Shown: one piece after another, positions 25,969 through 38,665 of the stretch
Layout: every line of letters starts with the position of its first letter
Position numbering within the stretch: the stretch's first letter is position 1
Assembly: GCA_903899845.1 (NCBI GenBank)
Contig: CAIUKV010000144.1
Location: 1-38,665 of the forward strand
Reading direction: 5' to 3'
DNA: 38,665 bases
From: an uncultured Actinomycetes bacterium
Lineage (GTDB): Bacteria; Actinomycetota; Acidimicrobiia; IMCC26256; PALSA-555
Notes under the pieces: generated by a model
Seen by the model: the letters and a program-made list of their open reading frames with translations, nothing else
Database searches by the model: none
Told to the model about the DNA's origin: nothing
Position numbers and translations under genes: made by a program

Positions 25969-26007
25969 CCGTCGACGGCCCGAGGCGGCGCCATCACCCG
26001 ACGAGAC

Positions 26008-26030
26008 GGGAGCCGTGGCGGAAGGCTCCC
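26008..26030 (-). terminator. Terminator-like hairpin after the lipoprotein gene
   Basis: GGGAGCC (26008-26014) and GGCTCCC (26024-26030) form a 7-bp stem with a 9-nt loop, 38 bp past the stop. It is nested inside a looser outer inverted repeat of the CACCC-GTCGAC type (about 25966-25979 and 26034-26048). Confidence 0.5.
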
Positions 26031-26067
26031 CCCTCCGGTCGACGGGGTGTCGTCACTTCGGGCAGGT

Positions 26068-26577
26068 CTAGCTCGGCCTGGGCTCGACGAAGATCTCGAG
26101 CTGCTGTCCCTGGCTCCGAGCGACCGAGCGGGCACCGACGCGGTAGGACCCACCGGGCGACTCTCGCCACTCCAACCCGGCTCGGTCGCCGTCGACGAAC
26201 GGGACCCGATTGAAATCATCGCTGAAGTCGTTGTACACCCGGAGGTCGTAGCCGTCGATGAAACCGCCCGGCGGATCCGCCGTGATGCTGGTGTCGAAGT
26301 AGTTCCACCGGAACGTGCTCGCCCGGCCGCACTCGGTCGCCCCCGGCTTCACGCTCGCCGCACCGCTTTCGTGGCGTCCTTCCTTGAGATCCCACGTCTG
26401 GCTCGTGTTGTTCGTGAGGCACGCCAAGAACTCCTCCCCGGCGGCCTTGCGGGTCGGAGCCCCACCGGACCCCGATCCGGCGTCGGACTTCGCGTCGCCA
26501 CCTCCGCAGGCGGCGAGAGCCCCCGCCACCAACGCGACCACGAAGAGCGCTGCCACTCGTCGCCTGGATCTCATCAT
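26068..26577 (-). CDS. Predicted lipoprotein of unknown function
   Basis: I do not recognise this 169-residue protein. It begins MMRSRRRVAALFVVALVAGA and has a clear lipobox, L21-A-A-C24, followed by a Gly/Ser/Lys-rich tether (25-46). The mature domain (47-169) has two cysteines (C52, C83) placed for one disulfide, many aromatic residues (FRWNYFDTSI, RVYNDFSDDFNRVPF) and short beta-type stretches, which suggests a small extracellular beta-sandwich or ligand-binding domain. ATG at 26577 follows GGGAG by 9 nt. It lies 35 bp downstream of polA on the same strand. Codon use is a little less GC-rich than its neighbours (for example ATT, AAA and TTC-GTC-GAA stretches). That could mean later acquisition. 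Confidence 0.75.
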   Translation of the reverse strand: MMRSRRRVAALFVVALVAGALAACGGGDAKSDAGSGSGGAPTRKAAGEEFLACLTNNTSQTWDLKEGRHESGAASVKPGATECGRASTFRWNYFDTSITADPPGGFIDGYDLRVYNDFSDDFNRVPFVDGDRAGLEWRESPGGSYRVGARSVARSQGQQLEIFVEPRPS

Positions 26578-26612
26578 GATCTTCCGCTCCCTTCGCACAC
26601 CGTCGCGTCGCG

Positions 26613-29252
26613 TCACTTCGCGTCCGCCCAGTTCGGTCCGTACCCGAGGTCGACCACCAGGGGCACCCGGAGGTCGCACACGCCCTCCATCGTCGCACGC
26701 ACGAGCGCCTCGGCGGCGTCGCGCTCGGCCAGGGGCACCTCGAAGACCAGTTCGTCGTGGACGGTGAGCAGCATGCGCGTCGCCATGCCGGCGGCGGTGA
26801 GGGCGGCATCGACGTCGACCATCGCCAGCTTGAAGATGTCGGCCGCGCTGCCCTGGACCGGGGCGTTCTGGGCCATCCGCTCGCCCATCTGGCGGATCCG
26901 GAAGTTGTCGGAGGAGAGCTCGGCGATGAAGCGCCGGCGGCCGAAGACCGTCGTCGTGTAGCCCCGCTGCTTGGCGTCGTCGATGGTCTCCTGCATGAAC
27001 GCCTTCACCCGGGGGAACCCGGCGAAGTAGGCGTCGAGGATCACCTTCGCCTCGCCCGACGGGATGCCGAGGCGCTGGGCGAGACCGTAGGCCTCCATCC
27101 CGTAGGCCAGGCCGTAGTTGACCACCTTGGCGAAGCGGCGCTGGTCGCCGTCGACGGCGGCCTCCGGGACCCCGAAGACGGTCGCCGCCGTGACCGTGTG
27201 GATGTCGACCCCGCGCTCGAACGCGTCGATCAGGCCGGGGTCGTCGGCCAGGTGGGCGAGCACCCGCAGCTCGATCTGGGAGTAGTCGGCGGTGAGCAGA
27301 CCCGAGCCGTCCTCGGCCACGAAGACCTTGCGGAACTCGCGCCCGTCGGCGGTGCGCACCGGGATGTTCTGCAGGTTGGGGTGCTCCGACGAGATCCGCC
27401 CCGTGGTGGTGTCGGTCTGCTTGAACGTCGCGTGGACCCGACCGTCGGCCTCGATCAGCGGCGGGAGCGCATCGGCGTAGGTGCTGCGGAGCTTCTCGAC
27501 CTCGCGGTACCGGAGCAGCTCGGGGACGATCGGGTGCTCGGCGGCGAGCTTCTGGAGCGAGTCGGCGTCGGTCGACGGCCCGGTCTTGGTCTTCTTGACC
27601 GGGGTGAGGCCGAGCCGGTCGAACAGGACGGTGCGCAGCTGCGGCGTGGAGTTGACGTTGAACGCCTCCCCGGCGAGGCCGTGGATCACCCCCACGAGGC
27701 GCTCGCACTCGGCCGACAGCTGGGCGCGCAGCTCGTCGAGGGCGTGCCGGTCGACGGCGATGCCGGTGCGCTCCATGAGGGCGAGTACCCGCACCAGTGG
27801 ACGCTCGAACCGCTCGTAGAGGTCGAGGAGCTCGCGGCCCTCGAGGGCCTCGATCAGCGCGTCGGCGAGCGCGGGCAGGGCCGCGGCACGGCGGGCCAGG
27901 TCGTCGAGCGCGGCGTCGCCGCCGAAGTCGAGCGTGCCCTCCTCGCGGTCGGGCGAGCGCACCTCGACCGAGCAGTACCGCAGCGCGAGGTCCTCGAGCG
28001 CGTACCGCCCCTCGGCCGGGTCGACGAGGTACGCCATCACCGCCGTATCGCGGTCGAGGGTGCGGACGTCGATCGCCAGGCTCCGCATGACGTCCTTGGC
28101 GCGGTGGGCCGTGAGCCCGGGGCCCTCGGTGAGCAGCGCGACGCCGGCGGGACCGGTGAGCGCACCGAGGGCGTCGCCGACGAGCACGTGGACGGGCCCG
28201 CCGGGGGCGTGCAGGGCCACGGCGGTCACCGGCGAGCGGCCCGGCGTGCCCGCCCAGCGGGCGTCGAGGGCGTAGGGACCGCCGGTCCGGTAGGCGTCGA
28301 GCAGCGCAACCGCCCGATCGGCGTCGTGGACGGTCTCGGTGTCGAACTCGACCGTCTCGGCCACCGGTGCGTCGGCGACCGCCTTCTCCCCCACCGCGTC
28401 GAGGAGGCGGGGGTACAGCGTGCGGAACGCGAGCTGGTCGAACAGGACGCGGACCGCCTCCTTGTCGAAGCCGCGGTGGGTGAGGTCGGGATCGCCGACG
28501 TCGACCGCCCGGTCGAGGACCGACATGTCGCGGTTGAGCACGACCCGTGCGGCCATGGCGCCGAGGTTCTCGCGCTGCTTCGGGGGCAGCTCGTCGAGGT
28601 GGGCGAGGATCTCCTCGACCGTGCCGTAGGTGTTGACCAGCTTCGCCGCGGTCTTCTCGCCGATGCCGGGCACGCCGGGCAGGTTGTCGGACGAGTCGCC
28701 CCGCAGCGCGGCGTACTCGGGGTACTGGCGGGGCGTGACCCCGGTGCGCTCGGCGATGCCCGCCTCGTCGTAACGGGCGTAGTCGGACACCCCGCGCTTG
28801 TTGTAGAGGACCCGGATGTGGGGGTCGCGCACGAGCTGGTAGGAGTCCCGGTCACCGGTGACGATCACCACGTCGGTGCCGGCGTCGGCGGCCCGGGTGG
28901 CCAGCGTCGCGATGACGTCGTCGGCCTCGACGCCGGCCACCTCGACCACCGGGATGCCGACGGCGGCGAGCACCTCCCGGATCAGGGGCAGCTGGGGCGG
29001 GAACAGCTCCGGGGTCTCCTTGCGACCCGCCTTGTACTCGGGGTCCATGCCGTGGCGGACCGTCGGCCCCGGCGGGTCGAAGACCACCGCGATCTGGTCG
29101 GGGTGCTCGTCGGCGAGCATCTTGACCAGCATCGACGTGAACCCGAAGACGGCGTTGGTGACCGTGCCCGACGGTGTGCTCATGTCGGGCGGCAGGGCGT
29201 AGAAGGCGCGGTAGGCGAGGGAGTGGCCGTCGAGCAGCAACAGCTTCGGCAT
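26613..29252 (-). CDS. polA: DNA polymerase I
   Basis: PolA fills repair gaps and removes RNA primers. The 879 residues hold a 5' nuclease domain (1-290; LLLLDGHSLAYRAFYAL, VVFDPPGPTVRH, VEADDVIATLA, RGDSSDNLPGVPGIGEKTA), an exonuclease-like domain (about 300-470) and the polymerase domain (490-879). Polymerase motif A is TADYSQIELR with D656, motif B is RRFAKVVNYGLAYG with K709 and Y713, and motif C is VHDE (832-834). Where proofreading enzymes have Asp-x-Glu, this one reads D330-A-R332, so 3'-5' proofreading is probably lost. Tyr713 replaces the Phe found in E. coli. TACGAT lies 7 nt before the ATG with no Shine-Dalgarno, so the mRNA is likely leaderless. Confidence 0.97.
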   Translation of the reverse strand: MPKLLLLDGHSLAYRAFYALPPDMSTPSGTVTNAVFGFTSMLVKMLADEHPDQIAVVFDPPGPTVRHGMDPEYKAGRKETPELFPPQLPLIREVLAAVGIPVVEVAGVEADDVIATLATRAADAGTDVVIVTGDRDSYQLVRDPHIRVLYNKRGVSDYARYDEAGIAERTGVTPRQYPEYAALRGDSSDNLPGVPGIGEKTAAKLVNTYGTVEEILAHLDELPPKQRENLGAMAARVVLNRDMSVLDRAVDVGDPDLTHRGFDKEAVRVLFDQLAFRTLYPRLLDAVGEKAVADAPVAETVEFDTETVHDADRAVALLDAYRTGGPYALDARWAGTPGRSPVTAVALHAPGGPVHVLVGDALGALTGPAGVALLTEGPGLTAHRAKDVMRSLAIDVRTLDRDTAVMAYLVDPAEGRYALEDLALRYCSVEVRSPDREEGTLDFGGDAALDDLARRAAALPALADALIEALEGRELLDLYERFERPLVRVLALMERTGIAVDRHALDELRAQLSAECERLVGVIHGLAGEAFNVNSTPQLRTVLFDRLGLTPVKKTKTGPSTDADSLQKLAAEHPIVPELLRYREVEKLRSTYADALPPLIEADGRVHATFKQTDTTTGRISSEHPNLQNIPVRTADGREFRKVFVAEDGSGLLTADYSQIELRVLAHLADDPGLIDAFERGVDIHTVTAATVFGVPEAAVDGDQRRFAKVVNYGLAYGMEAYGLAQRLGIPSGEAKVILDAYFAGFPRVKAFMQETIDDAKQRGYTTTVFGRRRFIAELSSDNFRIRQMGERMAQNAPVQGSAADIFKLAMVDVDAALTAAGMATRMLLTVHDELVFEVPLAERDAAEALVRATMEGVCDLRVPLVVDLGYGPNWADAK

Positions 29253-29259
29253 CGGGTCG

Positions 29260-29265
29260 ATCGTA
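29260..29265 (-). promoter_or_regulatory. Putative -10 element of a leaderless polA transcript
   Basis: TACGAT, then 7 nt, then the polA ATG. It lies in the 48-bp gap after pdtaR, so polA has its own promoter. No -35 is evident. Confidence 0.5.
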
Positions 29266-29300
29266 GGCCCGGACCATCCTCCCCGGTGGCCTCGTCGGGA

Positions 29301-29906
29301 TCAGTCGGGCCCTGGTGCGACGGGGGCGAGATCCCCGGCGATCACGGCCCGGGCCACGGTCGCGATCCCTGTCCGGCCGTTCATCGCCGCGGTCTGGAGG
29401 AACCGCCACGCCGCGGCCTCGGAGAGCCCGTGGTCGTCCATCAGGACGCCCTTGGCCCGGTCGGTGAGCTTGCGGGTCTCGAGTCGTTCCTTCAGGTCCG
29501 CGACCTCGACCTCGAGCGCGACCCGTTCGGCCTGGCGGGCCAGCGCGACCTCGATCGCGGGCACGAGGTCGCGCTCCTGGAACGGCTTGACGAGGTAGGC
29601 CAGCGCACCGGCGTCGCGCGCCTCTTCCACGAGGTCGCGCTGCGAGAACGCCGTGAGCACGAGCACCGCCGCGAGACGCTCCTCGGTGATGATCCGCGCC
29701 GCGCTGATGCCGTCGAGGCCGGGCATCTTGACGTCGAGGATGGCGAGGTCGGGCCGCAGCGAACGGACCAGCTCGACCGCCTCGTCGCCCCGGCCCGCCT
29801 CCCCGACCACCTCGTAGCCCTGGCCCTCCAGGATCTCGCGCAGGTCGAGGCGGATGATGGCCTCGTCCTCGGCGATCACGATGCGGGGTCGGGCCGGGTC
29901 GGTCAC
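29301..29906 (-). CDS. pdtaR: Response regulator with ANTAR RNA-binding output (PdtaR type)
   Basis: This is a two-component regulator that acts on RNA rather than DNA. The receiver domain (residues 8-125) has the acidic pocket AEDE, phosphoacceptor D58 (AILDVKMPG), T85 and K107 (LVKPF). A coiled-coil linker (125-145) leads to the ANTAR domain (about 145-190: LTDRAKGVLMDDHGLSEAAAWRFLQ), which binds dual-hexaloop antiterminator RNAs. The start is GTG at 29906. Position next to polA matches mycobacterial PdtaR, whose histidine kinase partner PdtaS is encoded elsewhere; no kinase is in the window. It follows the coiled-coil protein by 19 bp and is probably co-transcribed with it. Confidence 0.85.
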   Translation of the reverse strand: MTDPARPRIVIAEDEAIIRLDLREILEGQGYEVVGEAGRGDEAVELVRSLRPDLAILDVKMPGLDGISAARIITEERLAAVLVLTAFSQRDLVEEARDAGALAYLVKPFQERDLVPAIEVALARQAERVALEVEVADLKERLETRKLTDRAKGVLMDDHGLSEAAAWRFLQTAAMNGRTGIATVARAVIAGDLAPVAPGPD

Positions 29907-29925
29907 CGGGGCGTCGACCCGCCGA

Positions 29926-30225
29926 TCAGGGCCCGGCGAGCTCGGCCGCCATGCGGTCGAGCAGCTCGTCGAGCTCCTGCTGGAGCCGGCCGATCTGGAC
30001 GAGCAGCCCGTCGCGGTACCGGGTCATGGTGTCGGCCTGCTGGCGGGCGTCGCGGGCCTCGGCGTCGGCCAGGGGCGTCTCGGAGACCAGGGCCCGAAGC
30101 CGGAACTCCTCGGCCTCGCCCTCGAGGAAGGCCACCTGCTCCTCCGTGACCGCCAGCTCCGCGCGCAGGCGCTTGAGGCGGTCGCTGACGTCGACGAGCC
30201 GACGCTGGAGGATCGTGCGGGTCAC
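29926..30225 (-). CDS. Small coiled-coil protein of unknown function
   Basis: The 99 residues are almost entirely heptad-like charged helix (RRLVDVSDRLKRLRAELAVT, RDGLLVQIGRLQQELDELLD), with no membrane segment and no cysteines. I recognise no family. The start is GTG at 30225; TAGACT lies 8 nt upstream and there is no Shine-Dalgarno, so it probably begins a near-leaderless transcript that continues into pdtaR. A scaffold or partner role for the ANTAR regulator is possible but unsupported beyond position. Confidence 0.72.
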   Translation of the reverse strand: MTRTILQRRLVDVSDRLKRLRAELAVTEEQVAFLEGEAEEFRLRALVSETPLADAEARDARQQADTMTRYRDGLLVQIGRLQQELDELLDRMAAELAGP

Positions 30226-30233
30226 GGCTCAGC

Positions 30234-30239
30234 AGTCTA
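30234..30239 (-). promoter_or_regulatory. Putative -10 element for the coiled-coil gene and pdtaR
   Basis: TAGACT is 8 nt before the GTG at 30225. It lies back to back with the tRNA-Leu promoter in a 50-bp divergent spacer. Confidence 0.45.
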
Positions 30240-30255
30240 CGCGGGGTCCCTCCGG

Positions 30256-30261
30256 TAGCCT
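30256..30261 (+). promoter_or_regulatory. Putative -10 element of tRNA-Leu
   Basis: TAGCCT is the same hexamer as before uvrA. It lies 14 nt upstream of the mature tRNA 5' end, giving a 5' leader of about 7 nt for RNase P to remove. No clear -35 is seen. Confidence 0.4.
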
Positions 30262-30275
30262 GCCGGTCTCCATCG

Positions 30276-30358
30276 GCCCGAGTGGTGGAACGGCAGACAC
30301 GGCGGACTCAAAATCCGCTGCCCGCAAGGGCGTGTGGGTTCGAATCCCACCTCGGGCA
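30276..30358 (+). tRNA. tRNA-Leu (anticodon CAA)
   Basis: The 83-nt class II tRNA has acceptor strand GCCCGAG pairing with CTCGGGC (30351-30357) and discriminator A at 30358. Its anticodon arm is GCGGA-CTCAAAA-TCCGC with CAA at 34-36, it has a long variable arm (CCCGCAAGGG) and a T-arm GTGGG-TTCGAAT-CCCAC. It reads UUG codons. The genomic sequence after the discriminator is CCG, so the CCA end is not fully encoded and must be added. Confidence 0.96.
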
Positions 30359-30361
30359 CCG

Positions 30362-30377
30362 GACCCGGCGCCGGGTC
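30362..30377 (+). terminator. Palindrome directly after tRNA-Leu
   Basis: GACCCGGC-GCCGGGTC is a perfect 16-bp palindrome starting 4 nt after the tRNA discriminator, with partial extension by CACC and GGTG outside it. It probably acts as the tRNA terminator. As RNA the innermost pairs would have to open to form a loop. Confidence 0.5.
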
Positions 30378-30391
30378 GGTGCAGGACCGGG

Positions 30392-30667
30392 TCAGTGCGA
30401 GACGTGGATCCAGCGCCGACCCGCACGCGAACGCGAGAGTTCCTCCACCACCGTCGACCGGACCGGGTCGATCCCGGGCTGGCCGTCGTCGGACACGTGC
30501 TCGGTCCAACGATCTCCGTCCCACTCCCGGAACTGGTGCCGACGGGTCGGGTCGCGGTACCAGCCGGGCGACCGGGGGTCTCGGTTGCGCAACATCTCGG
30601 GGACTCGGGTCTTCCTGCGTCGGAGAGCGCCCGGGTCGGAAACCGGGCATGGGTCTGGACGGCGCAT
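30392..30667 (-). CDS. DUF2510 domain protein
   Basis: The 91-residue product contains one DUF2510 domain (about residues 34-66), with the signature [20 protein letters not shown] followed by WTEHV. This short Trp-rich domain is almost restricted to Actinobacteria and is usually fused to membrane proteins; its function is unknown. Here it stands nearly alone, with no membrane segment, and runs opposite to tRNA-Leu. ATG at 30667 has GGGGAG 9 nt upstream; Met25 (30595) is an alternative, because a TACGAT hexamer overlaps the first ATG and could instead be the promoter. C-terminal residues 75-91 are Arg/Ser-rich. Confidence 0.7.
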
Positions 30668-30731
30668 CGTAGGGGACTCCCCACCCGAAACGGTGGATCG
30701 CGCACGCCGGGCGCCACCCCGAGACCGCCGG

Positions 30732-30737
30732 TACCCT
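30732..30737 (+). promoter_or_regulatory. Putative -10 element of a leaderless transcript
   Basis: TACCCT, then exactly 7 nt, then the GTG of the acidic membrane protein at 30745. There is no Shine-Dalgarno in between. Confidence 0.45.
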
Positions 30738-30744
30738 GCCGCCC

Positions 30745-31164
30745 GTGACCGTCACCGCCGTGGACACCCTCGTCTGGGCGGCAGGCGCCGTGGTGATCGC
30801 AGCGGTGGCCCTGCTCCTGGCGCTGCTCGCCCCCTGGCGCAGCGTCCGGGACGAGAGCCCCCTGCCCCCCGACGTCGAGACCCGACTGCTCCTGGGCGAG
30901 GACCCCGACCGGGTCGCCGCCGACCTGGGCGCGACGACCCCGAGCCGCGACGCGCCCCCCGGACCACCCGCGACCGGCGAGCCCGGCGAGCCCGGCGACC
31001 TGTCGGACCTGTCGGACCTCTCGGACCTCGCCGAGCTCGCAGGGCTCCCCGAAGACGGGGACCCCGACGACGGGGACCCGGACGACGGGGACCCGGACGA
31101 CGGGGACCCGGACGACGGACCCGACGCCGCTCCCTCCTCCGCACCGGGCCCCTCGGGATCCTGA
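30745..31164 (+). CDS. Single-pass membrane protein with acidic repeat tail
   Basis: I recognise no family. The 139 residues begin with one hydrophobic helix (8-30: TLVWAAGAVVIAAVALLLAL) and then a juxtamembrane segment (PWRSVRDESPLPPDVETRLL). A disordered acidic tail follows, with DLSDLSDLSDLAEL at 85-98 and about five repeats of DGDPD at 104-127. A GTG start at 30745 with TACCCT 7 nt upstream supports a real, leaderless gene. The tail is likely cytoplasmic, because Arg residues follow the helix. The tandem DNA repeat beneath the tail means the protein length may vary between strains. Confidence 0.6.
   Translation: MTVTAVDTLVWAAGAVVIAAVALLLALLAPWRSVRDESPLPPDVETRLLLGEDPDRVAADLGATTPSRDAPPGPPATGEPGEPGDLSDLSDLSDLAELAGLPEDGDPDDGDPDDGDPDDGDPDDGPDAAPSSAPGPSGS
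31054..31125. repeat. 15-bp in-frame tandem array
   Basis: About 4.8 copies of GACGGGGACCCGGAC encode DGDPD units in the acidic membrane protein. The copies are nearly identical at the DNA level (one C/G difference), pointing to recent expansion rather than selection on the protein alone. Confidence 0.85.
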
Positions 31165-31174
31165 GGCCCCGGCA

Positions 31175-31192
31175 GCCGGGGGCTCCCCCGGC
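31175..31192. terminator. Bidirectional hairpin between convergent genes
   Basis: GCCGGGG-GCTC-CCCCGGC, a 7-bp stem with a 4-nt loop, lies in the 38-bp gap between the acidic membrane protein (plus) and fabZ (minus). There is no T-tract. Confidence 0.55.
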
Positions 31193-31202
31193 GCCACCCG
31201 CC

Positions 31203-31634
31203 TCAGCCGGCGATGGCGAAGAAGATGCGGGCCTCGCAGGCGAGCTCGTCGCCCACGGTGGCCCGCCCGGCCCCCCAGCCCCCGCGCGCGCTGAGCCGCT
31301 CGAGGGTGACGGCCATGCGCAGCTCGTCGCCGGGGCCGACCAGCCGGCGCCAGCGGACCTTCTCCACCCCGCCGAAGAGCGGCAGCCGGCCGGCGTAGCG
31401 CTCGTGGGCCAGCACCCCGATCGCCCCGGTCTGGGCGATCGCCTCGAGCTGGATCACCCCGGGGAACACCGGGTTTCCGGGAAAGTGGCCGGCGAGGAAG
31501 TCCTCCGCCCCGGTCACGCGGTACCGGGCCACGACCATCCCGCCGGGATCGATCTCGTCCACCTCGTCGACGAAGCGGAACGGGGGCCGGTGCGGGAGCA
31601 GGGCCACGAGCGCCTCGGAGTCGGGGTGGGCCAT
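31203..31634 (-). CDS. fabZ: 3-hydroxyacyl-ACP dehydratase FabZ
   Basis: FabZ dehydrates 3-hydroxyacyl-ACP to trans-2-enoyl-ACP. The 143-residue hot-dog fold protein has the catalytic His50 in HFPGNPVFPGV and Glu64 in LEAIAQTG, plus the N-terminal LLPHRPPFRFVDEV. The ATG at 31634 is supported by TACGGT exactly 7 nt upstream (leaderless layout); a longer frame with ATG at 31658 is possible. It is divergent from the rest of the fab cluster across an AT-richer 125-bp spacer, so both directions may share an operator. Use of FabZ rather than HadABC differs from mycobacteria. Confidence 0.95.
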   Translation of the reverse strand: MAHPDSEALVALLPHRPPFRFVDEVDEIDPGGMVVARYRVTGAEDFLAGHFPGNPVFPGVIQLEAIAQTGAIGVLAHERYAGRLPLFGGVEKVRWRRLVGPGDELRMAVTLERLSARGGWGAGRATVGDELACEARIFFAIAG

Positions 31635-31641
31635 GGCCCGC

Positions 31642-31647
31642 ACCGTA
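31642..31647 (-). promoter_or_regulatory. Putative -10 element of a leaderless fabZ transcript
   Basis: TACGGT, 7 nt, then the fabZ ATG at 31634. Confidence 0.45.
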
Positions 31648-31673
31648 GCGGGACGCATGTCACGCCCCGGCAA

Positions 31674-31721
31674 GTTACCGGTCAGTAAATGGCCACTCTG
31701 CTGTAACCCCCTCCCGGTAAC
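31674..31721. promoter_or_regulatory. Candidate operator region between fabZ and fabD
   Basis: This is the least GC-rich spot of the surrounding kilobases. It contains a perfect 8-bp inverted repeat, GTTACCGG (31674-31681) and CCGGTAAC (31714-31721), 32 bp apart. The left half is also part of a compact dyad, TTACCGGTCAGTAA (31675-31688). Two half-sites facing each other in a divergent fatty-acid promoter region suggest binding of a TetR- or MarR-like lipid regulator. No regulator gene is in the window. Confidence 0.5.
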
Positions 31722-31759
31722 GCAGGTCAAACCGTCACCGAGAGAGGGGTGGAGCGGGC

Positions 31760-32683
31760 GTGGGGGCCACTGGCGTCGCGATCGTGTTCCCGGGACAGGG
31801 GACACAGCAACCGGGGATGGGCGCGCCGTGGCGCGACCACCCGGCGTGGCGGGTGGTCGAGGAGGCCGAGGCCGCGTTCGGCGAGCCGCTCGCGTCGCTG
31901 ATCCTCGACGCCGGCCCCGACGAGCTCGCCCGGACCCGCGAGGCACAGCTCGCCGTCCTGTTGACCTCACTGGTCGCGTGGGAGGCCGTGCGCGACGCGG
32001 TCCCCGCGCCGGTCGCCTTCGCCGGGCACTCGCTCGGGCAGGTCACCGCGCTGATCGCCGCCGGCGTGCTGCCCCTCGACGTCGGGGTGCGCTTCGCCGC
32101 GCGTCGGGCCGAGTGCACCCAGGCCGCCGCCGACGCGAACCCGGGCCGGATGGCCGCGCTGCTCGGCGCGACCGTGGCCCAGGCCGAGGACGCCTGCACC
32201 GCCGCGCCCGACGCCTGCTGGGTCGCCAACGACAACGCCCCCGGGCAGGTCGTCATCGCCGGCACCCCGATCGGGGTCGAGGCGGGCATGGCCCGGGCCA
32301 AGGAGCTCGGGGTCAAGCGGGCCACGCCCCTCAACGTGGGCGGGGCCTTCCACACCCCGCTCATGGACCCCGCGAGCGCGGTGCTCACCGCCGAGCTCGC
32401 CACCGTCGTGCTCCGTGCGCCGAGCGCGCCGGTGGTCTCGAACCACGACGGCGCGCCGTACGCCGACGGCGACGGCTGGCGGGAACGCCTCCCCGAGCAC
32501 GTGCGCGTCCCGGTGCGCTGGCGTACGACCCTCGAGACCATCGCCGGGCTCGGTGCCACCTCCATGCTCGAGGTCGGTCACGGCTCGATGATCGCCGGGC
32601 TGGCCAAGCGCACCGTGCCCGACGTCCCCGTCCGCAACGTCGCCACCCCCGACGACGTCCCCGTCATCTCCGAGGTCGCCTGA
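31760..32683 (+). CDS. fabD: Malonyl-CoA:ACP transacylase FabD
   Basis: FabD loads malonate from CoA onto ACP. The 307 residues show FPGQGTQQPGMG (10-21), the nucleophile elbow GHSLGQ with Ser91, Arg115 of FAARRAE (carboxylate binding), the oxyanion-side VANDNAPGQVVIAG and catalytic His198 in GGAFHTPLM. The GTG at 31760 is preceded by GGAG at 5-nt spacing. The stop TGA overlaps the next ATG by one base (TGATG). It is the first gene of the plus-strand fab operon. Confidence 0.96.
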   Translation: MGATGVAIVFPGQGTQQPGMGAPWRDHPAWRVVEEAEAAFGEPLASLILDAGPDELARTREAQLAVLLTSLVAWEAVRDAVPAPVAFAGHSLGQVTALIAAGVLPLDVGVRFAARRAECTQAAADANPGRMAALLGATVAQAEDACTAAPDACWVANDNAPGQVVIAGTPIGVEAGMARAKELGVKRATPLNVGGAFHTPLMDPASAVLTAELATVVLRAPSAPVVSNHDGAPYADGDGWRERLPEHVRVPVRWRTTLETIAGLGATSMLEVGHGSMIAGLAKRTVPDVPVRNVATPDDVPVISEVA

Positions 32684-32940
32684 TGGAGTCCCACATCGGC
32701 CCGGGCGAGGTCCTCCTCGTCCCCGAGCGCATGATCGTCGCCCCGACGGTCGGAACCTTCCGGCCCGTGGACCTGGGTACGGACCCCCACGTCACCGCAG
32801 GCCAGACTGTCGGCGTGCTGGAAGGACCCGGGACCTCGACGCCGGTCGCCAGCCCGTTCGCCGGGCGGCTGGTCGGCATGCTCGCCCGCCCCGGCGAGCG
32901 CATCCGCGAGGGGCAGCCGATCGCCTGGCTCCGCGTCTGA
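32683..32940 (+). CDS. Lysine-less biotinyl/lipoyl-domain-like protein
   Basis: The 85 residues align with the biotinyl domain of acetyl-CoA carboxylase carrier protein across its whole length. VAPTVGTFRPV matches the entry strand SPMVGTFY, VTAGQTVGVLE matches VGDTLCIVE, and VASPFAGRLVGMLARPGERI with REGQPIAWL matches the exit half. At the hairpin where carriers have EAMKM, this protein reads E47-G-P-G50-T, and it has no lysine anywhere, so it cannot carry biotin or lipoate through a lysine. The missing 80-residue N-terminal linker of BCCP is also notable. Translation is coupled to fabD and fabH by one-base TGATG overlaps on both sides, so it is a real gene made with the FAS II enzymes. A structural or docking role is an inference. 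Confidence 0.82.
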   Translation: MESHIGPGEVLLVPERMIVAPTVGTFRPVDLGTDPHVTAGQTVGVLEGPGTSTPVASPFAGRLVGMLARPGERIREGQPIAWLRV

Positions 32941-33926
32941 TGCGCACCTGCATCGCGGGCTGGGGCGCCGCCGTGCCCGACGGGCGGCTGACCAACGCCG
33001 ACCTCGAGGCCCGGGTGGAGACCACCGACGCCTGGATCCTCGAGCGCACCGGGATCCGCGAGCGCCGCGTCGCGGCCGACGACGAGACCACGGCGAGCCT
33101 GGCCGTCGCCGCGGGCGCCGCCGCGATCAAGCGGGCCGGCTGCACCCCCGACGACATCGACCTGCTCCTCGTGGCCACGGCCACCCCCGAGCAGCCGATC
33201 CCCCACACCGGGGCGTTCGTCGGCGACGGGCTCGGGCTCCGCTGCGGCTCCTTCGACCTCAACGTGGGCTGCGCCGGGTTCATCTACGGGATCATCACCG
33301 GGTCGGCCCTGCTCCAGGCCGGGCACCTGCGCCGCGTCCTGGTGGTGGGCGCCGAGACCCTGTCGCGCGTGGTGGACCCCCGCGACCGCGGCACCTGCAT
33401 CCTCTTCGGCGACGGGGCCGCCGCGGTGGTGCTCGCCCCGGCGGACGATGACGGTCCGGGCATCCTCGGCTGGGACACCGGCTGCGACGGCTCGGCGGCC
33501 TACCTGATCGGCATCCCCGCCGGTGGGAGCCGCATGCCCGCCACGCCCGACACCATCGACGAGGGCCTGCAGTACATCAAGATGCAGGGCCAGGAGGTCT
33601 TCCGCCGGGCGGTGCGGGCCGTGGTCGACTCCGCCAACCTCGCCCTCGAGCGCGCGGGCGTCACCACCGCCGACATCGACTGGTTCATCCCCCACCAGGC
33701 CAACCTGCGCATCATCGAGGCCGCGGCGAGCCGCCTCGGGATCGACCGCGACCGCACCATCGTCAACATCGACCGGTTCGGCAACACCTCGGCGGCGTCG
33801 ATCCCGCTCGCCATGGCCGAGGCGGCCGATGCCGGGCGCCTGCGCGACGGTGACCTGCTGCTGATGAGCGGCTTCGGGGCGGGCATGTCGTGGGCGTCGG
33901 CCGTGCTGCGGTGGGGTCAGGCGTGA
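32940..33926 (+). CDS. fabH: 3-oxoacyl-ACP synthase III FabH
   Basis: FabH starts fatty acid chains by condensing acyl-CoA with malonyl-ACP. The 328 residues have the complete triad Cys111 (NVGCAGF), His252 (IPHQANLRI) and Asn282 (GNTSAAS), the N-terminal signature WILERTGIRERR, and the C-terminal GFGAGMSWASAVLRW. The ATG overlaps the preceding stop by one base and the stop overlaps fabG as GTGA. The primer acyl-CoA preference cannot be read from the sequence. Confidence 0.96.
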   Translation: MRTCIAGWGAAVPDGRLTNADLEARVETTDAWILERTGIRERRVAADDETTASLAVAAGAAAIKRAGCTPDDIDLLLVATATPEQPIPHTGAFVGDGLGLRCGSFDLNVGCAGFIYGIITGSALLQAGHLRRVLVVGAETLSRVVDPRDRGTCILFGDGAAAVVLAPADDDGPGILGWDTGCDGSAAYLIGIPAGGSRMPATPDTIDEGLQYIKMQGQEVFRRAVRAVVDSANLALERAGVTTADIDWFIPHQANLRIIEAAASRLGIDRDRTIVNIDRFGNTSAASIPLAMAEAADAGRLRDGDLLLMSGFGAGMSWASAVLRWGQA

Positions 33927-34693
33927 GCGCCGCGCCCCCCGCGGACGCGACGCCGGGCCGGGTCGCACTGGTCACCGGCGCGTCGCGCGGGATCGGTCGC
34001 GCCGTCGCCGTCGCCCTGGCGCACGCAGGCTGCCGGGTCGCCGTCGGCTTCGGCGGCGACGCCGCCGGGGGCGCCGAGACCCTGGCGATGGTCACCGCGA
34101 CCGGGCGCACCGGCATGACGGTCGGCATCGACGTCGCCGACGCCGCCGCGGTCGATGCCGCCTTCACGGCGGTCGAGGCCGAGCTCGGTCCGGTCGAGAT
34201 CCTGGTCAACAACGCCGGCATCACCCGCGACGGCCTCCTCGCCCGCATGAGCGACGACCAGTGGGCCGCCGTCCTCGACACCAACCTCGGCGGGGCCTTC
34301 CACACCATCCGCCGGGCCACCCCGAAGATGATGCGGGCCCGCTTCGGCCGGATCGTCAACGTGTCGTCCGTGAGCGGCCACCTCGGCGCACCCGGCCAGG
34401 CCAACTACTCGGCGGCCAAGGCGGGGCTGCTCGGCCTGTCGCGTGCCGTGGCCCGGGAGCTGGCCTCCCGCAACGTCACCTGCAACGTGGTGGCACCCGG
34501 ACCGATCGTCACCGCGATGACCGACGGCCTCCCCGGCGAGTGGCGGGCGGCCATGGAGGCCACCGTCCCCCTGGGCCGCCTCGGGACCCCCGAGGAGGTC
34601 GCCGCCGTGGTCGCCTTCCTGTGCTCCGACGCCGCCGCCTACGTCACCGGGGCCCTGGTGCCGGTGGATGGCGGTCTCGGCATGGGACACTGA
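33923..34693 (+). CDS. fabG: 3-oxoacyl-ACP reductase FabG
   Basis: FabG is an NADPH-dependent reductase of 3-oxoacyl-ACP in the short-chain dehydrogenase family. The cofactor motif is TGASRGIG (18-25), NNAG is at 96-99, N121, and the catalytic Ser149, Tyr162 and Lys166 lie in VNVSSVSG and NYSAAKAG. GTG at 33923 overlaps the fabH stop (GTGA) and gives 256 residues; the frame is open slightly further upstream inside fabH. The following 120-bp gap before acpP holds two CGAGCACCCA direct repeats and no clear promoter. Confidence 0.95.
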   Translation: MSAAPPADATPGRVALVTGASRGIGRAVAVALAHAGCRVAVGFGGDAAGGAETLAMVTATGRTGMTVGIDVADAAAVDAAFTAVEAELGPVEILVNNAGITRDGLLARMSDDQWAAVLDTNLGGAFHTIRRATPKMMRARFGRIVNVSSVSGHLGAPGQANYSAAKAGLLGLSRAVARELASRNVTCNVVAPGPIVTAMTDGLPGEWRAAMEATVPLGRLGTPEEVAAVVAFLCSDAAAYVTGALVPVDGGLGMGH

Positions 34694-34813
34694 CAAGATC
34701 TGTGCCACCCTGGGCACCGAGTTCCACCTGACCCCACCCGGGGGCTCCGGGGGCCTCCCGGCCCCGGCCACCGGTCCCGAGCACCCAACCCGAGCACCCA
34801 AGGAGACGCAACG

Positions 34814-35065
34814 ATGGAGCGGGCTGAAGTCCTGGCAGCGCTGAGCGAGGTCGCGGTCGAGGTCCTGAGCGTGGAGGCCGACCAGGTCACGGAGGCGGCC
34901 CGGTTCAAGGAGGACCTCGACGCCGACAGCCTCGACCTGGTCGAGTTCGTCATGGGCCTCGAGGAGCGCTTCGACATCTCGGTGCCCGAGGAGGAGCTCG
35001 AGAACGTCGCCACCGTCGGCCAGGCCGTGGACCTCGTCCTGGCCAAGGTCGCCGCCAAGTCCTGA
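34814..35065 (+). CDS. acpP: Acyl carrier protein
   Basis: ACP carries the growing acyl chain on 4'-phosphopantetheine. The 83-residue acidic helical protein has the attachment site Ser39 in [12 protein letters not shown]. The ATG follows AAGGAG by 8 nt, the strongest Shine-Dalgarno in the cluster and in keeping with the high amounts of ACP needed. It lies between fabG and fabF, the common FAS II order. Confidence 0.97.
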
Positions 35066-35093
35066 ACGGCCCCGTCGCGCAGGAGCGGAAGCA

Positions 35094-36344
35094 ATGAGCG
35101 AGGAGCTGCTCGACCACCGGGGTCGTCCCCGGATCGCCGTGACCGGAATGGGGATCAAGTGCCCCGCCGGCACCGACCTCGACGCGGTCTGGGCGGCCAT
35201 GCGGGCCGGGCGTTCCTTGGCCTCCCCGATCGAGTTCTTCGACGCGTCGCCGCTCGAGGTCCGGTTCGCGGGCCAGGTGCGCGACTTCGACCCGGTCCCG
35301 TACTTCGGGCCCAAGGAGGTGCGGCGTCAGGACCGGGTGACCCATCTCGGGTTCGCGGCCGCCGCCGACGCCATCGCCCACGCCGGGGAGCTCGACGCCG
35401 ATCCGGAGCGCTGCGCGGTCGTGGCGGCCACCGGGGTGGGTGGGCTCACCACCCTCGAGGAGAACTGCCACATCTTCTACGAGAAGGGGCCGTCGCGGGT
35501 CAGCCCGTTCTTCGTGCCGATGATGATGCCCAACGCCACGGCGGGGGTGATCTCGATGCGCTACGGCTTCACCGGACCGGCGTTCTGCGTGTCCACCGCC
35601 TGCGCGGCCGGCACCAACGCGATCGGCGAGGGCGCCCGGCTCATCCGCGACGGCACGTCCGACGTCGTCGTCGCCGGGGGCACCGAGGCGTTCACCGCGG
35701 TGACCGTCGCCGCGTTCGCCCGGATGGGCGCGCTGAGCAAGCGCAACGACGACCCCACCGCCGCCTCGCGTCCGTTCGACGTCGCCCGCGACGGATTCGT
35801 CATCGCCGAGGGGGCGGCCTTCTTCGTGCTCGAGCCCCTGGCCCGGGCCCTCGCGCGCGGCGCCGAGATCCACGGCGAGATCGCGGGGTACGGCCGGAAC
35901 GCCGACGCGTACCACATCACCGCGCCGTCGCCCGGGGGCGCGGGCGCGGCCCGCTGCATGCAGCTCGCACTCGAGGACGCCGGGATCGAGCCCGCCGAGA
36001 TCGGCCACATCAACGCGCACGGGACCTCCACCGAGCTGAACGACGCGGCCGAGGCCGAGGCGATCCGCAAGGTGTTCGGTGACGCCGCCCCGCCCGTGAC
36101 CGCGCCCAAGGGGGTGCTCGGGCACATGATCGGAGGTGCCGGGGCGGCCGAGGCCGTCATCTCCCTGCTCGCGCTGCGCGACCGGGTCCTGCCCCCCACC
36201 GCGAACCTCACCACGATCGGGCCCGGCATCGACCTCGACGTCGTGCACGGCGAGGAGCGCACGATCTCCGACCGTCCGGCGATCTCGAACTCCTTCGGGT
36301 TCGGCGGGCACAACGCGTCGCTGGTGCTGCGACGCGTGGGGTGA
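35094..36344 (+). CDS. fabF: 3-oxoacyl-ACP synthase II FabF
   Basis: FabF is the chain-elongating condensing enzyme. The 416 residues have Cys170 in STACAAG, His309 in NAHGTST and His344 in KGVLGHMIGG, plus C-terminal NSFGFGGHNASLVL. The ATG at 35094 follows AGGAG by 8 nt. The stop overlaps the start of the carboxyltransferase gene as GTGA, so elongation and malonyl-CoA-related functions are translationally coupled. Confidence 0.96.
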   Translation: MSEELLDHRGRPRIAVTGMGIKCPAGTDLDAVWAAMRAGRSLASPIEFFDASPLEVRFAGQVRDFDPVPYFGPKEVRRQDRVTHLGFAAAADAIAHAGELDADPERCAVVAATGVGGLTTLEENCHIFYEKGPSRVSPFFVPMMMPNATAGVISMRYGFTGPAFCVSTACAAGTNAIGEGARLIRDGTSDVVVAGGTEAFTAVTVAAFARMGALSKRNDDPTAASRPFDVARDGFVIAEGAAFFVLEPLARALARGAEIHGEIAGYGRNADAYHITAPSPGGAGAARCMQLALEDAGIEPAEIGHINAHGTSTELNDAAEAEAIRKVFGDAAPPVTAPKGVLGHMIGGAGAAEAVISLLALRDRVLPPTANLTTIGPGIDLDVVHGEERTISDRPAISNSFGFGGHNASLVLRRVG

Positions 36345-37720
36345 GCGGACCCACCACCCCCCTGGTCGGCCGGCGCAGCGCCGTTGCGGCGGCCCGGCTG
36401 ACCCGGGCCCCCGACGGCCGTCCGGTCGCCTCGTTCCGCATCGAGGGCGGGCCCCACGTCGGCGCGATCGGTCCGGCCGAGGGAGCGGTGCTCGAGCGGG
36501 CGATCCGCCAGGCCGCCGATCTCGGGGTCCCCGTCGTCGGCACGATCGCCTCGTCCGGGGCCGACGTCCGGGCCGGGGTGGCCTCCCTGCACGCCTGGGG
36601 CAGGGTGGCGAGGGCCCTGGCCGCGGCGTCCGGGGTGGTCCCGACCGTGCTCGTCGTGACCGGGCCGTGCCTGAGCGGGCCCGCGCTGCTCCTCGGGCTC
36701 GCCGACGTCGTGATCATGACCGACGAGGCGTTCGCCTACGTGAGCGGCCCCGACACGGTGCGCGCATTCACCGGCATCGCGATCGAACCTCAGGCCCTCG
36801 GAGGCAGCGCCGTGCACGACCGGCGCAGCGGGGTCGCCGCGTTGGTCGCGCCCGACGAGGCCGAGGCCGTCGCCCTGGCCTGGGCTGTGCTCGACTACCT
36901 CCCCGGCCACCATCTCGACGACCCCCCGGTGTGGCCCACCGACGACCCCCCCGACCGCCCGTGCCGCGTCGCCGCGGCGACCGTGCCCGCGCTGCCCACG
37001 GCGTCCTACGACGTGCGCCGGGTGATCGACGACGTCGTCGACGCCGACAGCCGCCTCGAGCTGTGGGCCCGCCACGCCCCGAACCTCGTGACCGCCCTCG
37101 CCCGGCTCGGGGGCCGCACCGTGGGGGTCGTGGCCAACCAGCCCCAGCAGCGGGCCGGCACCCTCGACATCGAGGCCTCGGAGAAGGCGGCCCGCTTCGT
37201 GCAGTGGTGCGACGGTGCCAACGTGCCGCTCGTGACCTTCGTCGACACGCCCGGGTTCGAGCCGGGCAAGGACCTCGAGTGGCGGGGCATGATCCGCCAC
37301 GGGGCCGAGCTGGTCCACGCCTACGCCGCCGCCACCGTCCCGCGCTGCTGCGTGGTGCTGCGCAAGGCCTACGGCGGCGCCTACATCGTCATGGACTCCA
37401 AGGGCATGGGCAACGACTGGTGCGGGGCCTGGCCCGGGGCCGAGATCGCGGTGATGGGTGCGCCCGGGGCGGTGCAGATCCTCTCGGGCCGCGAGCTCGC
37501 CGCGATCGCCGATCCCGCGGCGCGCGCCCGGGCCCAGGACGAGCGGGAGGCCGAGTACCAGGCCCGCTTCTCCAACCCCTACGTGGCCGCCGAGCGGGGC
37601 TACGTCGACGCGGTGATCGACGCCGCCGACACCCGCCGCGTCCTGATCGACGTGCTCCGCCAGCTCGACACGAAGCGGGAGCTCGGTCGGCCCCGCCCGC
37701 ACGCCAACACCCCGCTGTGA
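36341..37720 (+). CDS. Divergent acyl-CoA carboxylase carboxyltransferase (beta) subunit
   Basis: This is a member of the AccD/PccB carboxyltransferase family, which moves CO2 from carboxybiotin to acetyl- or propionyl-CoA. The C-terminal lobe is canonical: FVDTPGFEPGKDLEWRGMIR, RKAYGGAYIVMDSKG (341-355) and AWPGAEIAVMGAPGAVQIL. The N-terminal lobe is shortened: 459 residues against roughly 510-550, lacking the usual KLTARERI region. Its acyl-CoA/oxyanion site is altered: TIASSGADVRAG (68-79) in place of the DSGGARIQEG type, and GPCLSGPA (108-115) in place of GPCAGGAV. The GTG overlaps the fabF stop. It could be the acetyl-CoA carboxylase subunit of this FAS II system, or a relative with changed chemistry. 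No biotin carboxylase gene is in the window. Confidence 0.82.
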   Translation: MSGPTTPLVGRRSAVAAARLTRAPDGRPVASFRIEGGPHVGAIGPAEGAVLERAIRQAADLGVPVVGTIASSGADVRAGVASLHAWGRVARALAAASGVVPTVLVVTGPCLSGPALLLGLADVVIMTDEAFAYVSGPDTVRAFTGIAIEPQALGGSAVHDRRSGVAALVAPDEAEAVALAWAVLDYLPGHHLDDPPVWPTDDPPDRPCRVAAATVPALPTASYDVRRVIDDVVDADSRLELWARHAPNLVTALARLGGRTVGVVANQPQQRAGTLDIEASEKAARFVQWCDGANVPLVTFVDTPGFEPGKDLEWRGMIRHGAELVHAYAAATVPRCCVVLRKAYGGAYIVMDSKGMGNDWCGAWPGAEIAVMGAPGAVQILSGRELAAIADPAARARAQDEREAEYQARFSNPYVAAERGYVDAVIDAADTRRVLIDVLRQLDTKRELGRPRPHANTPL

Positions 37721-37760
37721 GCCCGCCGGAGTGGTGATCGGGCCCGCCCCGACCCACCGT

Positions 37761-37766
37761 TAGGCT
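37761..37766 (+). promoter_or_regulatory. Putative -10 element of fabI
   Basis: TAGGCT lies 22 nt before the fabI ATG, giving a leader of about 15 nt that includes AGGAGG at 37779-37784. Unlike the leaderless genes, fabI therefore has both signals. Confidence 0.4.
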
Positions 37767-37788
37767 CCCGCCCGACCCAGGAGGGACC

Positions 37789-38544
37789 ATGCTGCTCGAC
37801 GGCAAGCGCATTCTCGTGACCGGCGTCCTCAACACCGAGTCGATCGCGTTCGCGGTCGCCCGCTGCGCCCAGGAGCAGGGGGCCGAGGTGGTGCTGTCGT
37901 CGTTCGGGCGGATCATGAGCCTCACCGAGCGGTCCGCCCGCCGCCTGCCCGCGGCCCCGGAGGTGGTGGAGCTCGACGTCACCCAGCCCGCCGACCTCGA
38001 GGCCCTGGCCGGACGGGTCGGGGGCCGGCTCGACGGCGTGGTCCACGCGATCGGGTTCGCCCCGGCCACCTGCCTGGGCGGCGGCTTCCTCGACGCGCCC
38101 TGGGAGGACGTCGCGGTGGCGCTGCAGGTGTCGGCGTACTCGCTCAAGGCCCTCGCGGTGGCCGCCCTCCCCCTCATGGAGCGGGGCGGCGCGGTGGTCG
38201 GCCTCGACTTCGACAACACCGTGGCCTGGCCGGTCTACGACTGGATGGGGGTGGCCAAGTCGGCGTTCGAGTCGACCGCCCGCTACCTCGCCCGCGACCT
38301 CGGGCCGAAGGGCATCCGGGTCAACCTGGTCGCGGCCGGGCCGGTGCGCACGATGGCGGCCAAGAGCATCCCGGGGTTCGAGCAGTTCGAGGACGCCTGG
38401 ACCACCCGGGCGCCGCTGGGCTGGGACCTCAAGGACCCCGAGCCGGTGGCCCGGGCCACCGTGGCGCTGCTCAGCGACTTCTTCCCGGCCACCACCGGGG
38501 AGATCGTGCACGTCGACGGCGGGTACCACGCCATGGGGGCCTGA
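37789..38544 (+). CDS. fabI: Enoyl-ACP reductase, FabI/InhA type
   Basis: The enzyme reduces trans-2-enoyl-ACP with NAD(P)H, the last step of each elongation cycle. The 251 residues resemble mycobacterial InhA more than E. coli FabI: RILVTGVLNTESIAFAVAR at the cofactor site, SFGRIMSLTERSARRLP, ELDVTQPADLEALAGRVGG and VYDWMGVAKSAFEST with catalytic Tyr150 and Lys157. At the place of InhA Ser94 (HSIGF) it has Ala87 (HAIGF). AGGAGG is 4 nt before the ATG. The last codons (ATG GGG GCC TGA) are the first part of a 23-bp tandem array that continues to the window edge. Confidence 0.95.
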   Translation: MLLDGKRILVTGVLNTESIAFAVARCAQEQGAEVVLSSFGRIMSLTERSARRLPAAPEVVELDVTQPADLEALAGRVGGRLDGVVHAIGFAPATCLGGGFLDAPWEDVAVALQVSAYSLKALAVAALPLMERGGAVVGLDFDNTVAWPVYDWMGVAKSAFESTARYLARDLGPKGIRVNLVAAGPVRTMAAKSIPGFEQFEDAWTTRAPLGWDLKDPEPVARATVALLSDFFPATTGEIVHVDGGYHAMGA

Positions 38545-38665
38545 GCCCCGGCTCGATGGGGGCCTGAGCCCCGGCTCGATGGGGGCCTGAGCCCCGGCTC
38601 GATGGGGGCCTGAGCCCCGGCTCGATGGGGGCCTGAGCCCCGGCTCGATGGGGGCCTGAGCCCCG
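38533..38665. repeat. 23-bp tandem array starting in the fabI stop region
   Basis: Five complete identical copies (38533, 38556, 38579, 38602, 38625) and an 18-base sixth run to the window end. Each unit begins ATGGGGGCCTGA, the last three codons and stop of fabI, followed by GCCCCGGCTCG. Every unit holds a GGGGC-CTGA-GCCCC hairpin overlapping GAGCC-CC-GGCTC. The full copy number is unknown because the array continues past the window. Confidence 0.95.

Follow-up and report, generated by a model that had tools for sequence, protein, structure and literature searches.

In a draft actinobacterial genome of 2.89 Mb in 284 contigs, fabZ and the long operon that begins with fabD diverge from a spacer at positions 31635-31759 of contig C144. 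This raises the question of how the two arms of type II fatty acid synthesis (FAS II) are controlled from the DNA between them. We analyzed the whole contig (38,665 nt; here, the window) together with related genomes. The closest relatives with a name are bins from metagenomes that bear the labels Actinomycetota and Acidimicrobiia. A first-pass annotation had proposed that the spacer holds an operator for a lipid regulator, comprising a wide perfect inverted pair and a compact dyad around one of its halves. Comparison with relatives supports an operator at the compact dyad, with binding being a prediction, and indicates that the wide pair is no part of it. The annotation also missed the strongest element of the spacer, a bipartite promoter-like sequence that lies 13 bp downstream of the dyad and is more strongly conserved than the dyad. 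All of the evidence is comparative, the genomes are drafts, and gene calls outside the window are our own.

Gene content of the fab locus

Pfam searches agree with the annotation that fab genes diverge on either side of the spacer: fabZ (31203..31634, minus strand; PF07977, FabA-like) lies on one side and fabD, encoding malonyl-CoA:ACP transacylase (31760..32683, plus strand; PF00698, acyl-transferase), on the other. Behind fabD, the plus-strand operon continues with a small gene whose translation reads by eye as a biotinyl/lipoyl-like protein (32677..32940; no Pfam match at E ≤ 1e-5), fabH (32940..33926; PF08541/PF08545), fabG (33890..34693; PF13561), an open reading frame (ORF) with a DSLDLVEFV motif that we take to be the acyl carrier protein gene (34814..35065), fabF (35094..36344; PF00109/PF02801), an acyl-CoA carboxylase carboxyltransferase gene (36341..37720; PF01039), and a fabI-like enoyl-ACP reductase gene (37789..38544; PF13561). 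A 23-bp tandem repeat in 5.8 perfect copies (38533-38665) runs past the fabI-like gene up to the contig end. An Rfam scan of positions 26000-38665 returned nothing except one tRNA.

The spacer is an AT-richer island, as annotated, with a GC content of 65.6%, compared with 73.6% across the window; AT content is as high in 3.8% of 125-base windows. The strings on which the operator proposal was built are also present, with GTTACCGG at 31674-31681, CCGGTAAC at 31714-31721, and the compact dyad TTACCGGTCAGTAA at 31675..31688. The last is the single copy of TTAC-N6-GTAA in the window, a pattern that appeared in 0 of 100 shuffles. The Shine-Dalgarno region assigned to fabD (GAGAGAGGGGTGGAG) is found just upstream of the gene, at 31740..31759 on the plus strand. 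A direct DNA search with the spacer matched 5 of 61 genomes including this one, and two of the five were short matches elsewhere.

A leaderless-type start for fabZ

On the minus strand, TACGGT (31642..31647) ends 7 nt before the fabZ ATG at 31634, and an identical TACGGT is found in G001 and G003. In the 14 genomes with a placeable frame, a scripted search located TANNNT 6 to 9 nt before the fabZ start in 10, this genome included. These -10-like boxes support the leaderless start that had been predicted for fabZ. A second -10-like sequence, TAACTT (31672..31677, fabZ strand), overlaps the dyad. In G005 and G009, TAACTT lies 7 to 8 nt before the fabZ ATG and can be read as the fabZ -10; in G005 this box overlaps a near-dyad. 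Two other genomes (G025 and G035; L027 and L028) carry, divergent from fabD and where fabZ would be expected, a gene that by eye resembles a MerR-type regulator.

The compact dyad recurs before fab and other lipid genes

To score the dyad across genomes, we searched the 100 bases before the promoter in spacers with TGTAAC-N17/18-GTC (n = 28), a set that omits the promoter-positive regions with another first letter (G042, G054, and G060) and all promoter-negative regions. When one mismatch is allowed, YTACYSRYSRGTAR occurs in 10 of the 28 spacers (shuffle mean, 0.06); it occurs exactly in 4 (shuffle mean, 0.003), and 0 of 300 shuffles reached either count; in the other 18 spacers the dyad is absent or has at least 2 mismatches. 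The pattern was written after the spacers had been seen, 8 of the 10 matching spacers were already known (the exceptions being G020 and G049), and the pattern is in that sense partly fitted to the data it describes. The 10 spacers span five families of the order (f1, f4, f6, f9, and f10). One genome, G003, has two contigs with slightly different fabZ-fabD spacers (L034/L260 and L004/L242), probably from two strains in the bin, and an exact dyad in each.

Outside the fab locus, exact dyad sites in 31 genomes number 63 against 44 for the reversed control, a modest raw excess. By our own reading of the neighboring ORF, and with no matched baseline for the frequency of lipid genes, 36 of the 63 sites lie before lipid genes. 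These comprise 15 acyl-CoA dehydrogenase, 6 fabZ/fabD (in 4 genomes), 5 3-hydroxyacyl-CoA dehydrogenase, 5 glpD, 3 desaturase, and 2 thiolase sites. The assignments come from Pfam searches of 30 proteins for 11 of the 36 sites, and for the fabZ/fabD pair studied here, and from N-terminal sequence by eye for the others. The remaining 27 sites are inside ORFs, have no gene nearby, or stand beside other genes, including those for solute-binding proteins, a glycosyltransferase, PEP carboxykinase, and a peptidase-like protein.

The genome under study holds four further dyad near-matches, all lipid-linked. One is an exact YTACYSRYSRGTAR site at an acyl-CoA dehydrogenase gene, and three are one mismatch from TTACYSGYSRGTAA: the first is near glpD, the second is at a 3-hydroxyacyl-CoA dehydrogenase gene followed by a methylmalonyl-CoA-mutase-type gene, and the third is near a pair of genes for a thiolase and a zinc-type dehydrogenase that we read as crotonyl-CoA-carboxylase-like. 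Loss of the half-sites in relatives and a lack of other copies in the genome had been named in the first-pass annotation as grounds for rejecting the operator. Since the dyad recurs in both settings, the outcome was the opposite for the compact dyad; the right half of the wide pair did not share in this conservation.

A different reading treats the dyad as a mere by-product of the fabZ promoter, with GGTAACTT being an extended -10 box and the left half being due to chance. The placement of TAACTT in G005 and G009 described above fits this idea, and several dyads elsewhere share bases with -10-like boxes of genes that look leaderless, glpD and an acyl-CoA dehydrogenase gene at about 9 nt from the start being examples. 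Yet both halves recur together in the 10 matching spacers at varying distances, two dyads stand in tandem in G030, and the genes concerned are strongly lipid-oriented (36 of 63). Loci that were not selected by the dyad, 317 kb in all and including fabD loci found via the promoter pattern, contain 2 dyads, one at the promoter of the extracytoplasmic function (ECF) sigma factor gene of G028 and one at the fabD promoter of G003. A repressor site placed over a -10 would, moreover, look identical to such a by-product. We regard this explanation as rather doubtful and prefer to read the dyad as an operator.

A candidate regulator for the dyad

A symmetric dyad at lipid-gene promoters, in several copies per clade, has the character of a TetR-family lipid operator, and in G014 the dyad is flanked by genes for a TetR protein and a desaturase. 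The genome studied here encodes 11 TetR proteins. No dyad with 2 or fewer mismatches was found in the 500 bases upstream of the helix-turn-helix region of any of these genes, and the TetR of locus L226 has no clear orthologue among the 11. For the TetR at L279 (contig C235), the best solved relatives are 6o6p and 6o6n (E of about 1e-30).

The structure 6O6N is named in a paper on FasR of Mycobacterium tuberculosis, the available text of which gives a 25-bp crystal oligonucleotide that starts with TACCCG and ends with CCAGTA (PMC7382501). By our own comparison, which is not made in that paper, the dyad half-sites TTACCG and CAGTAA resemble the ends of this oligonucleotide in their letters. The spacing does not agree: the oligonucleotide reads TACCCG-N13-CCAGTA, and here TACCGG and TCAGTA abut. 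The half-sites being so much closer together, we therefore do not call the dyad a FasR operator. The FasR-like L279 protein is a candidate for the regulator that would bind it.

A probable bipartite ECF-type promoter upstream of fabD

The second element of the spacer (31702..31731, plus strand) has the form of an ECF-type promoter of the fabD operon, with TGTAACC (31702-31708) as the -35 and GTCAAA (31726-31731) as the -10; its core, TGTAAC-N18-GTC (31702-31728), points into fabD. The start of the fabD mRNA is predicted at 31733..31735 on the plus strand, solely from the position of the -10. We found fabD in 48 of 61 genomes, oriented the upstream DNA to the fabD strand, and counted 46 regions including that of this genome; G002 and G048 were excluded as truncated, and G004, G036, and G032 are short. 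GTAAC-Nk-GTC precedes fabD in 31 of these 46 genomes (k = 18 in 28 and k = 17 in 3). Every other k from 8 to 29 gives at most 6 of 46, and no k yields more than 2 on the opposite strand. Among the 15 regions without the element, three have fabD close behind another ORF by eye (G022, G043, and G050), one has a spacing of 19 (G051), and several are distant or truncated.

In 29 distinct TGTAAC-N18-GTC sites, conservation extends to C at both positions after AAC (24 of 29 each), G before GTC (24 of 29), and A three bases past GTC (28 of 29), and the spacer between the two boxes carries otherwise near-zero information. Sequence records titled Bifidobacterium breve and Thermoanaerobacterales (L045 and L070) contain this fabD, at 73% and 60% identity, respectively, together with the promoter; their organism labels look wrong.

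The element is rare. The exact form TGTAAC-N18-GTC has one copy in this genome, at fabD, and the relaxed form GTAAC-N17/18-GTCnnA has 4 matches against 0 for the reversed control. Besides fabD, these are at an ECF sigma factor gene, at a gene for an AMP-binding acyl ligase, and on contig C22, where the match looks accidental. The acyl ligase match (L183; C167:1096-1124) stands just before the start of the AMP-binding, fatty-acyl-AMP-ligase-like gene and is plausibly a real member of the set. Across the 61 genomes, TGTAACCC-N16-GTC occurs at 43 places, spread over 35 genomes with just one place in each of 29, against 10 places for the reversed control. Of these 43, 23 are at fabD, 3 precede a gene for a 107-amino-acid membrane protein (G033, G046, and G047), and the rest look accidental by eye. 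When homologues of this membrane-protein gene were collected, 12 of 18 loci had the element upstream (k = 18 in 6 and k = 17 in 6), a count that includes the 3 hits by which the gene was discovered. Searches with the protein (L163-L180) matched nothing in the genome that contains the window and no NCBIfam model, and no Pfam hit exceeded the cutoff.

Two other promoter assignments were considered and set aside. As a sigma-70 -10, TGTAAC would be expected in the company of other boxes, and by eye there is no common -35 upstream and no TANNNT downstream. As a promoter of fabZ on the minus strand, the element is disfavored because it stands in the same orientation before the sigma factor and membrane-protein genes; G025 and G035, moreover, keep it before fabD although fabZ has been replaced. 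In G028, the element reaches to within about 7 nt of the fabZ start.

An ECF sigma factor gene carries the same element

The sigma factor among the relaxed matches, P0001, is a 197-amino-acid protein encoded on contig C215, with the element directly upstream of its gene (C215:4363-4391; L275). It scores 109.6 bits against TIGR02937 (cutoff, 42.9), its best solved relative is a SigE, and it carries PF04542 and PF08281, i.e., regions 2 and 4 only. Among the best 25 of 103 NCBIfam models, the general TIGR02937 is the only one above its cutoff. The GTG start of P0001 comes immediately after the promoter, and the sigma gene thus looks leaderless.

Downstream of P0001 are the gene for P0002, tRNA-Trp, and ORFs read as secE and nusG. 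P0002 is a small protein with the sequence HVESCLRC and a hydrophobic segment. An ORF with HxxxCxxC lies behind the sigma gene in 23 of 30 loci, with the regular expression finding none in 7, and these ORFs have a moderately hydrophobic segment (best 19-residue mean, 1.56 to 2.24). P0002 has no Pfam zinc-finger match, and its score against the NCBIfam model "antisigma" is 22.9 bits (cutoff, 100). From its motif, its hydrophobic segment, and its place beside the sigma gene, P0002 is a probable membrane anti-sigma factor.

Matches to P0001 at E ≤ 1e-40 were found in 34 genomes including this one, and 30 loci were fetched. The element is upstream of the sigma gene in all 30 (k = 18 in 28 and k = 17 in 2), as would be expected of an autoregulated sigma factor. 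A matrix built from the fabD sites scores at most 8.1 on the ten other sigma loci of the genome, versus 16.3 at the P0001 locus and 30.0 at fabD. Of the 31 promoter-positive genomes, 20 have a P0001 orthologue (E ≤ 1e-40), as do 7 of the 15 that lack the promoter; this co-occurrence is weak, partly because many of the genomes are drafts. An AAC-type -35 with a distinct -10 at fixed spacing, peaking at k = 17/18 in three gene groups, is the layout of an ECF promoter. Taken together, this is the pattern of an ECF sigma factor that regulates its own gene and a small putative regulon including fabD, and we infer that P0001 itself would read the fabD promoter.

In G028 (L207/L227), the lipid dyad coincides in part with the -35 of the promoter that precedes the ECF sigma gene, a hint that in some species the sigma factor may be under the control of the lipid regulator.

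Instead of a promoter, TGTAACCC-N16-GTC could be a site bound by a transcription factor dedicated to the fab genes, of the kind of the PucR-type MabR or Streptomyces FasR. Such control has precedent, in that MabR and FasR are described in the available text as acting on the fabD operons of M. tuberculosis and Streptomyces coelicolor via upstream inverted repeats (PMC5541348), and the small number of places per genome would also suit a dedicated factor. The halves of the bipartite element, however, form no inverted repeat, and their spacing is fixed at 17 to 18; by eye, no TANNNT-type -10 follows the element in the sequences inspected. Its presence before the sigma gene in every fetched locus likewise speaks against a transcription factor site, and we consider such a site quite unlikely here.

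The notion that the wide pair, GTTACCGG and CCGGTAAC, works as a unit through cooperative binding or looping across 40 bp from center to center is highly improbable and largely refuted by relatives: the pair is a perfect one of 8 bp, but some such perfect pair is present in 28% of 125-base windows, and its right half (31714..31721, plus strand) sits in the freely varying promoter spacer, is gone from the sister genome G001 (FabD 94% identical), which reads GTTACCCG ... CCGACACC, and is absent from G003 as well.

A two-input model for the fabZ-fabD spacer

The reading we favor, with reasonable though not strong confidence, is that the spacer is a two-input control region in which an ECF sigma factor would transcribe the fabD-fabI operon and a TetR-type acyl-CoA regulator would act at the dyad. 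The TGTAACC-N17-GTCnnA sequence has a promoter-like layout and would drive fabD-fabH-fabG-acp-fabF-carboxyltransferase-fabI, the start signal of fabD probably being read by a stress-type sigma factor. In this scheme P0001 would be that reader, its own gene having the same element and being followed by the probable anti-sigma gene. From this shared element and this neighbor, it would follow that conditions at the envelope or membrane set the output of FAS II via P0001.

On the other side, the dyad TTACCGGTCAGTAA belongs, by comparison across genomes, to a family of sites often found before acyl-CoA dehydrogenase, 3-hydroxyacyl-CoA dehydrogenase, glpD, desaturase, thiolase, and fab genes. A TetR-family acyl-CoA sensor bound there would tune the leaderless fabZ and perhaps the fabD promoter too. 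The center of the dyad is about 47 bases upstream of the fabZ start and its end is 13 bases upstream of the fabD -35, and a regulator on the dyad could act on both promoters. The overlap of -10 and near-dyad in G005 would suit repression; the position of the dyad here would suit either sign. The first-pass annotation had suggested that the two arms could respond differently. This remains reasonable because fabZ looks like an ordinary leaderless gene with a TANNNT promoter and fabD looks like a gene with an ECF promoter.

A broader proposal, on which we are evenly divided, is that in much of this actinobacterial order a dedicated ECF sigma factor, freed from a membrane anti-sigma factor, directly transcribes the FAS II operon, and that one family of TetR acyl-CoA operators would join fabZ/fabD, beta-oxidation, desaturase, and glycerol-3-phosphate genes, as well as the sigma -35 of G028, in a single circuit for membrane-lipid homeostasis. 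The roles for which ECF sigma factors are best known concern stress and the envelope. If one of them does drive the main membrane-lipid operon, the membrane itself is likely to be the signal. The predicted chain of sigma factor, promoter, and target is sufficiently specific for a reporter test, and the dyad would define a first lipid regulon in a group that is known mainly through metagenomes. Among the matches listed for open-licence articles in PubMed Central, neither an ECF promoter for fab genes nor a dyad regulon is described in this group.

Comparison with known systems

SigX-type ECF promoters of Bacillus subtilis have the form TGTAAC...CGAC. The -35 hexamer is the same as that upstream of fabD and the spacing is similar, but the bacteria and the targets differ, and the -10 here is GTCnnA. 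SigX of Pseudomonas aeruginosa and SigW of B. subtilis are likewise ECF sigma factors that affect fab genes. As described in the available text, P. aeruginosa SigX raises many fab genes including fabD, with no discernible consensus upstream of the induced operons and with indirect control allowed for by the authors, and SigW acts on fabF from within fabHa (PMC3875570). In contrast, a single conserved element stands here before the whole FAS II operon.

For the dyad, the closest parallel is FasR of M. tuberculosis, a TetR-family acyl-CoA sensor of fatty acid synthesis with a like-lettered oligonucleotide; the ends of that oligonucleotide are 13 bp further apart than those of the dyad, and the known target given in the available text is the FAS I operon fas-acpS (PMC7382501). 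MabR in mycobacteria and FasR in Streptomyces similarly provide a dedicated control point upstream of the fabD operon, but belong, in the text available, to the PucR family and use inverted repeats rather than the -35/-10 pair seen here (PMC5541348). A system of that type would be expected to have a PucR gene beside fabD; the neighbor of fabD here is fabZ. A direct, conserved ECF-type promoter before a complete FAS II operon, as predicted here, is an arrangement different from those of SigX, SigW, MabR, and Streptomyces FasR.
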